A stretch of DNA of 64,000 nucleotides from Deltaproteobacteria bacterium (lineage in GTDB: Bacteria > Desulfobacterota > Desulfomonilia > UBA1062). Position numbers and translations under genes: made by a program. Under the pieces are notes generated by a model. It did not search any database. It was not told where the DNA came from and saw nothing but the letters and a program-made list of their open reading frames with translations. Below, one piece after another: positions 56,596-58,002 of the stretch. Position 1 is the first letter of the stretch; each line of letters opens with the position of its first letter. The stretch is from contig JAKPPU010000200.1 of assembly GCA_029547185.1 (NCBI GenBank), positions 1-64,000 on the forward strand. Direction: 5' to 3'.

Positions 56596-56623
56596 TTGAA
56601 TTCCTCTATGAAAATCTTATACT
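56596..56623 (+). promoter_or_regulatory. Candidate sigma-70 promoter of the selenoprotein gene
   Basis: TTGAAT (56596-56601), 16 bp, TATACT (56618-56623), giving a start near 56630 and a leader of about 40 nt. The leader contains AGAGGAGGG (56657-56665) as ribosome-binding site for the ATG at 56672. Confidence 0.5.
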
Positions 56624-56671
56624 TCTAAGGAGAGTGCTACCAGAATCGGAGGCTTCAGAGGAGGGTTGGAT

Positions 56672-56878
56672 ATGTCGGAAAAAATACTCATCTACGGCAA
56701 GGCGGGTTGACCCTATACCGACCAGGCCAGGTCGGCCTATGGGGAAAGGGCGACGTACTACGACGTGAAGAAGGACCACGCAAAGCTCGACGAGATGCTT
56801 GCCCATACGAATGGCTCGCGCCAGGTGCCGGTGATCGTCGAGGGTGAAAAGGTCACGATCGGCTACGGCGGGTCCTGA
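56672..56878 (+). CDS. UXX-star family glutaredoxin-like selenoprotein (in-frame UGA = Sec13)
   Basis: 68 residues if the TGA at 56708-56710 is read as selenocysteine. The product begins MSEKILIYGKAGUPYTDQAR, continues SAYGERATYYDVKKDHAKLD and SRQVPVIVEGEKVTIGYGG, and ends at TGA 56876-56878. This is the glutaredoxin-like thioredoxin fold: strand, UxxT active site where glutaredoxins have CxxC, then the cis-proline segment QVPVIV and a GYGG end. It matches the known UXX-star (seleno)protein family. A good promoter, ribosome-binding site and coding sequence continue on both sides of the UGA, and a SECIS-like hairpin directly follows it. It is probably a small cytoplasmic thiol/selenol redox protein of unknown partner. 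It lies between a hybrid kinase gene and a convergent dGTPase-like gene. Confidence 0.88.
56711..56744 (+). promoter_or_regulatory. Bacterial SECIS-like hairpin behind the selenocysteine UGA
   Basis: CCCTATA (56711-56717) pairs with TATGGGG (56738-56744), and CCGACC (56718-56723) with GGTCGG (56730-56735), leaving a two-base CC bulge. The 6-nt apical loop is AGGCCA (56724-56729), close to the AGGUCU loop of E. coli fdhF. The loop starts 13 nt after the UGA, in the range of bacterial SECIS elements that bind SelB. Confidence 0.75.
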
Positions 56879-56919
56879 GGAGTGTAAACGGCCCATGGTC
56901 ATGGGCTTGCCTCTGCCGA

Positions 56920-58002
56920 TCACTCGAAGAATTCGGGCACGAAGAGCTCGTTGAACACCCGCAGGAAGGTCGAGTCCGTGAGGCTCGCGATGAAGTCCCT
57001 CACCATCTCTCCGGGGACATGGCTCTCGTGATAGCAGGCATCGAGACGGTCGAGGAACCTCGCATAGATGACCGAGTCCTTCCTCTCCTGCCGGACATCC
57101 TCGAGGAGCCGCTCGAAAACGAGGGTATACATGGTCCTGATCTTCGACGACTCTGTCTTTACCCGGGGATTGAGGTAGATGTTTTCATAGTTGAACCTTT
57201 TCAGGACCTCGAGGGCCCTGAACACCTTCGAGGAGTAGGCGATCCTTCCCTCGGTGGAGTGCCTGATGAGGTCTTCCACGAGGGCGTACACGATCTTGCC
57301 GTTCGTGTCTCCGAGGATGCCTTTCGCCTGCGCCGGTATCTGCTCGCGCGCGATGATGCCGAGCGATATGGCATCCTCGATGTCTCTGCCGATGTAGCTC
57401 ACCGTGTCCACGATCCTCACGAGCGCCCCCTCCATGGTCATGGGCAGCAGCGTTTTTCCCTGCCCGATGCTCTCGATCTTTCCGTCGAGGTCGGCGAACG
57501 TGTGGGCCGGCTCGGCAGAAACGCTCTGCTCGCAGGTCTCTCCGTTGTGGCAGAGGATGCCGTCCAAGACCTGCAGGGTGAGGTTCAGGCCCTTGCCGCC
57601 CTTCTCGATCCGCTCGAGCGACTGGATGGCCTGGACGTTGTGCCTGAACGGCCCGATGCCCGCCTTCCTGCACAGTTCGTCGAGATGCCATTCGCCGTCG
57701 TGCCCGAAGGGCGGGTGCCCGATATCGTGGCCGATGGCGATGGCCTCGATGAGGTCGTCGTTGAGGCCGAGCCGCCGTCCTACGGTCCTGGCGATCCGGG
57801 AGAGGAGCTGTACGTGGATGACCCGGTGCGATATTCCCTGGTGTCCCACGAGGTAGAAGACCTGTGTCTTGTCGATGTACGAGGTGTAGGCCTGGGAGTG
57901 AAGGATCCTGTCCACGTCGATGGAGAAGGCATCCCTCATGTCCCATTTGCCCGATTTCTCGACTCTCCTTCTCAGGCCTTGAATGGGATGAGTGCCTGTC
58001 AT
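56920..58002 (-). CDS. dGTPase-like HD-domain triphosphohydrolase
   Basis: 360 residues of the Dgt family. The metal-binding HD motif residues are in GISHRVIHVQLLSRIARTVG and EAIAIGHDIGHPPFGHDGE. KTQVFYLVGHQGISHR and the downstream RIVDTVSYIGRDIEDA fit the same family. It would hydrolyse dGTP or other dNTPs to the nucleoside and triphosphate, although many Dgt-like proteins have undefined substrates. The protein is short compared with E. coli Dgt (about 505 residues), matching the type-2 branch. It begins 6 bp after glyS, so it is probably co-transcribed with the glycyl-tRNA synthetase genes. Confidence 0.88.
   Translation of the reverse strand: MTGTHPIQGLRRRVEKSGKWDMRDAFSIDVDRILHSQAYTSYIDKTQVFYLVGHQGISHRVIHVQLLSRIARTVGRRLGLNDDLIEAIAIGHDIGHPPFGHDGEWHLDELCRKAGIGPFRHNVQAIQSLERIEKGGKGLNLTLQVLDGILCHNGETCEQSVSAEPAHTFADLDGKIESIGQGKTLLPMTMEGALVRIVDTVSYIGRDIEDAISLGIIAREQIPAQAKGILGDTNGKIVYALVEDLIRHSTEGRIAYSSKVFRALEVLKRFNYENIYLNPRVKTESSKIRTMYTLVFERLLEDVRQERKDSVIYARFLDRLDACYHESHVPGEMVRDFIASLTDSTFLRVFNELFVPEFFE

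Follow-up and report, generated by a model that had tools for sequence, protein, structure and literature searches.

A gene with two probable selenocysteine codons

We analyzed a 64,000-nucleotide stretch of DNA from a Deltaproteobacteria bacterium (GTDB lineage Desulfobacterota; Desulfomonilia; UBA1062; assembly GCA_029547185.1, contig JAKPPU010000200.1, positions 1 to 64,000 of the forward strand), referred to below as the window, and found that it very probably encodes a 71-residue protein with selenocysteine (Sec, U) at positions 13 and 69. The gene, uxx-star, and the signals upstream of it are the following, with counts that refer to the homologue sample described below.

56596..56623, + strand: promoter-like TTGAAT-16-TATACT (consensus scan only)
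56659..56665, + strand: ribosome-binding site AGGAGGG (from sequence)
56672..56887, + strand: uxx-star gene, 71 codons plus TAA, very probably with Sec13 and Sec69, ending Sec-Gly-Val-stop
56708..56710, + strand: codon 13, TGA read as Sec, active-site U-P-Y-T (TGA in 111 of 130 homologue copies)
56876..56878, + strand: codon 69, TGA almost certainly read as Sec (C-terminal TGA in 125 of 130 copies)

The original prediction, made without database searches, had placed a selenoprotein gene here, with an ATG at 56672, an in-frame TGA at codon 13 (56708-56710) and the segments GKAG-U-PYT and QVPVIV, all of which are present. The ribosome-binding site and promoter that it claimed were also found; the promoter-like pair matches the consensus at 9 of 12 positions, and the region holds two overlapping sites of this kind, compared with a mean of 0.1 in shuffled sequences. 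Reading through from the ATG yields MSEKILIYGKAG-U-PYTDQARSAYGERATYYDVKKDHAKLDEMLAHTNGSRQVPVIVEGEKVTIGYGGS, followed by a second TGA, and it was here, at 56878, that the prediction ended the protein, with 68 residues and one Sec. That end has to be corrected: the second TGA is followed directly by GGA GTG TAA (TGA GGA GTG TAA, 56876-56887), and the frame runs on to the TAA at 56885-56887, giving 71 residues.

The protein matched the profile hidden Markov model NF041114, "UXX-star selenoprotein family 1", with 107.4 bits (cut-off, 72; E = 3.1e-31), and with 96.9 bits when the whole genome was searched. It also scored above the cut-off of the broader model NF041212 (79.1 bits versus 66; 66.5 in the genome search) and above the gathering threshold of the Pfam Glutaredoxin model PF00462 (31 bits versus 22.9). 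Length, U-P-Y-T at position 13, VPVIV, the Sec-x-x-stop end and the two Sec residues all agree with family 1, from which the protein shows no difference; both the N-terminal UxxT motif (U-P-Y-T, codon 13) and the C-terminal U-X-X-stop motif are present. We read the "star" in the family name as the stop codon, so that U-X-X-stop names the very C-terminal Sec that had been overlooked. The family and its two Sec residues are already in print, since the listing in a 2026 review includes a "Distant Grx-like protein 1 (UXX-star selenoprotein family 1)", for which it gives the motif UxxT and a count of two Sec (PMC13188914); the corresponding listing in a 2022 review names the family without the number of Sec (PMC9312934). 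The gene is an ordinary member of this known, widespread double-selenoprotein family, and what was worked out here is the register of the first hairpin, the second hairpin past the stop and the absence of a terminal cysteine (Cys).

Other known groups lie further away. UXX-star families 2 and 3 and the HUGP/GUXX-star fusion (NF041211, NF047338 and NF045501) would, judging by their names, share the C-terminal motif, but the protein reached only 48.3, 46.7 and 49.3 bits with these models, below the cut-offs of 100, 97 and 325, respectively. The names of two of these families contain "(seleno)protein", hinting at members with no Sec at one site or at both. YruB-type glutaredoxins (TIGR02196; 31.2 bits, below the cut-off of 88.55) have the same fold and core motifs, whereas YruB-like relatives differ in an apparent helix at the end and in lacking a terminal Sec; the distant relatives described below that have a single Sec or none look like this general YruB kind. 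The glutaredoxin fold is also shared by cGrx1 and cGrx2 (7c10, 7c12 and 4tr0; TM-score 0.70-0.75, normalised to the query). We take these two proteins to be from Clostridium oremlandii and one of them to be a selenoprotein; presumably they carry an active-site Cys instead of UxxT and no terminal Sec.

The genome contains the whole Sec machinery, with selA, selB, selC and selD all present. The tRNA-Sec (selC), with anticodon TCA, scored over its cut-off, selA scored 531.6 bits, and selD scored 383.9 bits and is itself a selenoprotein, with Sec at HGAG-U-ACK (L044:1531, G000:C153), which we take to be the catalytic place of SelD. selB was recovered in two parts, one at an end of contig C143 (270.5 bits) and the other at an end of C129, and the two translated ends have a stretch of residues in common; split in this way (L035 and L037 in G000), it would be annotated as two partial genes. 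A complete Sec system and homologues with Sec or Cys at codon 13 (111 and 19 of 130 copies) were the two points on which the original prediction had staked itself, and with the NF041114 match they sustain its assignment of the gene to the UXX-star selenoproteins.

As the prediction had also foreseen, ordinary gene calling overlooks this gene: the list of open reading frames of at least 60 amino acids contains an antisense frame here, without the sense gene. One could therefore suppose that the region is non-coding or that the antisense frame, 105 amino acids long (56606-56923), is the real gene, all the more so because antisense frames of a similar kind cluster in 25 loci. However, the glutaredoxin match lies on the sense strand and the third-position bias reported below follows the sense frame, indicating that the antisense cluster is a shadow of sense conservation. 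We rejected the antisense frame as a gene on these grounds and consider the supposition to have practically no chance of being right. The minus-strand frame covers uxx-star, and its shadows in many relatives may be annotated as hypothetical proteins.

Codon 69 and the hairpin behind it

We searched 395 genomes drawn from one phylum with NF041114 and found a match at E 1e-10 or better in 134 of them and a match over the cut-off in 100. Loci were fetched for all 67 over-cut-off matches without an earlier locus and for 20 of the first 22 below-cut-off matches listed, two partial ones being skipped; these 20 are treated separately below. Apart from them, 130 distinct homologue copies were parsed, the window's own included. 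Copies were dropped only when about 200 bases were identical, and the counts given here are thus not counts of independent events. Other places in the window's genome (L027-L046 and L048) were left out deliberately, and no parse was obtained for L018, L026, L104, L107, L178 and L182 or for the weak homologues L064-L068 and L073-L076, which lie outside the 130.

In 125 of the 130 copies, all 19 with Cys at position 13 among them, the frame meets a C-terminal TGA and then, after a short tail, a stop. This number includes nine copies with a longer stretch before the U (L070, L138, L166, L167, L169, L176, L177, L181 and L184). The tail consists of exactly two residues in 115 of the 125, and in every one of the 125 the second position of the tail is occupied by V, I or L. 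We then counted substitutions relative to the window over codons 1-71 in 50 copies of equal length, which could be compared ungapped. Codons 14-68 had 25, 21 and 54% of their substitutions at the first, second and third positions, while the corresponding values for codons 70-71 were 4, 7 and 89% (third position, 86 of 97 substitutions). Past the stop, the next 60 nucleotides (nt) gave 33, 34 and 33% in 114 copies, a weak control because the copies are unaligned there. The conserved C-terminal TGA and tail, together with the third-position bias, argue that the ribosome reads through the second TGA and terminates two codons downstream. In line with this, the NF041114 match in the whole-genome search spans all 70 profile positions (56684-56884), the last two codons included.

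Five copies (L019, L063, L071, L174 and L175) lacked a counted C-terminal U; all five have Sec13, and their ends are longer and contain a TGA at a later point. When four over-cut-off loci missed by the parser were reread, L104 and L107 had Sec13 and L178 and L182 had Cys13, all four with a terminal U.

Bacterial selenocysteine insertion sequences (SECIS) are stem-loops with a G-containing apical loop about 15 to 25 nt after the UGA. The original account knew a single hairpin, that behind codon 13, and missed a second one behind codon 69.

56890..56907, + strand: candidate SECIS 2, GGCCCAU-[GGUC]-AUGGGCU, +12 to +29 after the second TGA and wholly past the TAA

An uninterrupted stem of at least six pairs behind the second TGA was found in 108 of the 125 copies with a C-terminal U, compared with 32% of shuffled sequences, and the loop centre fell at +18 to +22 in 94 copies, compared with 17% of shuffles. 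The 125 copies contain 114 distinct stem pairs, showing that base pairing is preserved across changing sequences. Four consecutive T followed the hairpin in only 4 of the 125, and thus few of these hairpins look like terminators. The final stop is itself a TGA in 59 of the 125 copies, 56 of them with a two-residue tail, which places a putative Sec UGA and a stop UGA nine bases apart.

The frequent use of TGA as the final stop also bears on whether codon 13 alone is recoded, with the TGA at 56876 acting as a true stop. TGA is an ordinary stop codon, and since 59 of the 125 copies end on one a few codons later, not every UGA in these genes can be Sec. Yet a true stop at this point does not account for 86 of 97 substitutions at the third position of codons 70-71, a second tail residue that is V, I or L in all 125 copies, a covarying hairpin at a fixed distance from the second TGA, the persistence of this TGA in all 19 Cys13 copies or a family profile that extends to position 70. 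A single-Sec protein stopping at 56878 was rejected because of the conserved tail and the third-position bias, and we regard it as very unlikely. As judged from these comparisons, the TGA at 56876-56878 is almost certainly a Sec codon and not a stop.

Alternatively, the terminal UGA could serve as a selenium-controlled switch, giving the Sec-Gly-Val tail when selenium is available and a 68-residue form when it is not. The tail is only three residues long, so stopping at UGA69 would leave a nearly complete fold, and the Cys13 copies (19 of 130) could reach residue 68 without selenium. The Sec13 copies (111 of 130), however, would halt at residue 12 under the same conditions, and a switch at codon 69 makes little sense there; we consider such a switch improbable.

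Three variations on this gene arrangement were noted among the loci. In a side group (L019, L063, L070, L071, L166, L174-L177 and L184), position 13 is Sec (Cys in L166) and the end is extended, as in ..PLFGGT-TGA-[PSA][VI]..; its TGA lies some twelve codons beyond the place that it has in the main group, and a stop within two or three codons is present in some only. In L053, from a genome of the same genus (G019), two uxx-star genes stand in tandem (1064-1276 and 1489-1701, starts 425 bases apart), each with two TGA codons. In L104, L119, L121 and L158 (G138, G355, G390 and G104), the open frame around the gene extends over 387-435 codons if stops are read through.

The hairpin after codon 13

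Two overlapping hairpins can be drawn behind the first TGA.

56711..56744, + strand: hairpin of the original prediction, loop AGGCCA; stable in the window's sequence, not conserved
56724..56738, + strand: candidate SECIS 1, upper stem-loop AGGCC-[AGGUC]-GGCCU, +14 to +28 after the first TGA; codon-permutation z 12.2

We compared the two in a codon-permutation test, in which rows carrying the same amino acid in a given column exchanged their codons at random (1,000 permutations). Among the Sec13 rows, the shifted stem, which starts 13 nt beyond the predicted one, was matched by 0 of 1,000 permutations (z 12.2), a score that relatedness inflates but for which the predicted register provides a control on the same rows and the same null. 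That register gave z -0.4 for its upper stem, with 707 of 1,000 permutations at least as good, and z 0.1 for its lower stem. All five shifted-stem pairs can form in 63 of 111 Sec13 copies and in 3 of 19 Cys13 copies, and the three inner pairs in 92 of 111 and 5 of 19, respectively. The hairpin with loop AGGCCA thus folds in this sequence, as had been claimed, but is not kept in relatives; the comparison of z -0.4 with z 12.2 ruled it out as a conserved SECIS, and it is probably not the working form. The covariation and position tests taken together identified a stem-loop of the bacterial SECIS kind at both UGAs.

The SECIS of Escherichia coli fdhF has the same AGGUC loop, located at +18 to +22 after its UGA compared with +19 to +23 here, whereas its stem letters and codon context differ from those of uxx-star.

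In the relatives examined, only codon 13 alternates with cysteine

At codon 13, the copies without TGA all carry a Cys codon (19 of 130). The terminal site behaved differently. A pattern for the C-terminal motif ending in TAR was found in its TGA form in 22 of the 395 genomes and in its TGY form in none, although the latter search could miss a rare or diverged Cys form, given that the TGA pattern caught 22 genomes and the profile 100. Of the 20 distant relatives that scored below the cut-off, 4 retain a C-terminal U, namely, L194, L196 and L203, which have Cys13, and L187, which has Gly13; another 4 have Sec13 without a C-terminal U (L197, L201, L205 and L206), and 12 have neither. Distant relatives can therefore keep either Sec without the other, indicating that the two sites vary independently. 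In none of these 20 does a comparable tail carry a terminal Cys, and no terminal-site Cys was found among the 130 parsed copies, the four reread loci or, with the TGY pattern, the 395 genomes. Within the relatives examined, a sample that does not extend to families 2 and 3, only site 13 thus appears to trade with Cys. This combination of a Cys swap at position 13 with no terminal Cys is possibly less well known than the family itself.

Predicted structure and proposed mechanism

AlphaFold models were obtained for the window's protein (predicted local distance difference test [pLDDT] 89.1) and for a distant Cys13 relative (pLDDT 94.6). Both have the order strand-helix-strand-helix-strand-strand, with no third helix, and end after strand 4 with a tail. 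Canonical glutaredoxins have a C-terminal helix 3, and a predicted structure without it marks the protein as a shortened relative and not a canonical glutaredoxin. Beyond the sheet strands, secondary-structure assignment with DSSP gave only two-residue segments in both models, one before the cis-Pro and one at the Sec-Gly of the tail (residues 51-52 and 69-70 in the window's protein; 54-55 and 72-73 in the Cys13 relative), and the tail may pair with the pre-cis-Pro segment. In a Foldseek search of the PDB (best 50 of 765 matches), the 12 best were glutaredoxins or glutaredoxin domains, followed by NrdH and other thioredoxin-like folds. The best match was the glutaredoxin 3ic4 (E 2.8e-04, TM-score 0.69), the sole one of the 765 at E of 0.001 or lower; cGrx1 (7c10) had a TM-score of 0.72.

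We propose that SelB with Sec-tRNA would recognise a stem-loop about 19-20 nt downstream of UGA13 and of UGA69 and insert Sec at both, the stem-loop serving UGA69 lying past the real stop TAA, two codons on. The product would be a thiol/selenol oxidoreductase in which the attack on the substrate comes from Sec13, located at the N-terminus of helix 1. The Sec69-Gly-Val tail would replace the third helix, fold back against the segment before cis-Pro53 and act as a built-in resolving partner, through Se-Se or, where residue 13 is Cys, Se-S. For the explanation as a whole, namely, a double-Sec protein of glutaredoxin fold, two hairpins read by SelB and an oxidoreductase that uses Sec13 and Sec69, we estimate a probability of roughly 0.8. 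That Sec69 resolves the intermediate on residue 13 is a tentative part of it, suggested by the models and less likely than not. In ordinary glutaredoxins, glutathione lies beside the pre-cis-Pro segment. A further, speculative step would make the terminal Sec an irreplaceable substitute for glutathione: the tail would dock by the cis-Pro and close a diselenide or selenenylsulfide, yielding a glutathione-free glutaredoxin in anaerobes.

A number of observations weigh against this explanation. For the first hairpin, the conserved register was enriched in Cys13 copies too (z 2.8, 3 of 1,000 permutations). The two stems of the predicted hairpin also scored in these rows, with z 1.9 and 2.2, respectively, and Sec13 and Cys13 copies thus differ only by degree. 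In the window alone, the 42 nt that follow the UGA have the predicted hairpin as their minimum-energy fold (-19.6 kcal/mol), and the pair probability of the conserved register is about 0.01, rising to 0.10-0.13 with the first 7 nt left out, when the upper stem of the predicted hairpin is still dominant. With the first 11 nt left out, four of the five pairs of the shifted stem form and close the AGGUC loop (-9.2 kcal/mol), and a ribosome covering these 11 nt would favour the shifted register. A 57-nt fold did not differ significantly from shuffled sequences (z -1.21), of which 26 of 200 folded equally well. The Rfam model SECIS_1 had no match in the genome and was equally silent in 14 of 14 control genomes, and Rfam on the region returned no SECIS, its one match being an unrelated family at E 1.7. 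The assembly is a draft (completeness 96.03%, contamination 5.31%), with the sel genes on other contigs than uxx-star. As for the mechanism, the docking of the tail rests on the DSSP strings, and L187 (G149:C175) keeps a C-terminal U-Gly-Val-TGA with Gly at position 13, which opposes an obligatory 13-69 pair. Finally, what the 2026 review suggests for the family is either metal binding or unknown substrates (PMC13188914).

Both Sec residues could accordingly be ligands of a metal or metalloid in a glutaredoxin-like carrier for metal handling rather than a redox pair. The terminal Sec was never seen as Cys in the relatives examined, and redox Sec sites usually have Cys counterparts. The glutaredoxin fold with Sec at the catalytic N-cap and a cis-Pro is nonetheless the standard redox arrangement, and none of the direct neighbours (the PAS hybrid kinase, the dGTPase-like gene and glyS) is a metal-resistance gene. 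We regard metal handling as possible though doubtful, and retain the oxidoreductase as the preferred reading.

Neighboring genes

Downstream, uxx-star faces a convergent gene.

56920..58002, - strand: convergent dGTPase-like gene with an HD domain (Pfam HD and HD_assoc both above their cut-offs)

The best NCBIfam match of this gene was dGTP triphosphohydrolase, at 253.3 bits and below the cut-off of 393; none of the named dGTPase families was reached over its threshold. It was found by tblastn in 12 of 20 loci of the same order, with glyS after it in 8 of the 20. The upstream gene encodes a PAS hybrid histidine kinase with PAS, HATPase and receiver domains, so that the kinase neighbour pointed out in the original prediction is real. 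The meaning attached to its position did not hold up. Among 70 loci searched for neighbours (where a locus came from a whole genome, its flanks measured about 1.5 kb), the kinase was represented by the window's own copy and by partial matches of 28-38% identity in L006, L014, L056 and L059, while five loci of the same genus (L050, L052, L053, L055 and L058) had no match within the flanks searched. We rejected the neighbour as significant on these grounds, and as far as these loci show, the position beside the kinase is incidental. Outside the order, the open reading frame picker returned many antisense shadows, and no conserved neighbours emerged.

Meaning for the UXX-star family

Ordinary gene calling is blind to genes of this type, and even a reader aware of Sec lost the end of the protein. 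The pairs of Sec UGA and stop UGA under one hairpin, seen in 56 of 125 copies, offer a natural test of how the position of a SECIS sets the meaning of a UGA. In addition, a Sec that is never Cys in the relatives examined, beside a Sec that sometimes is, in one small protein, provides a clean comparison of selenium with sulphur.
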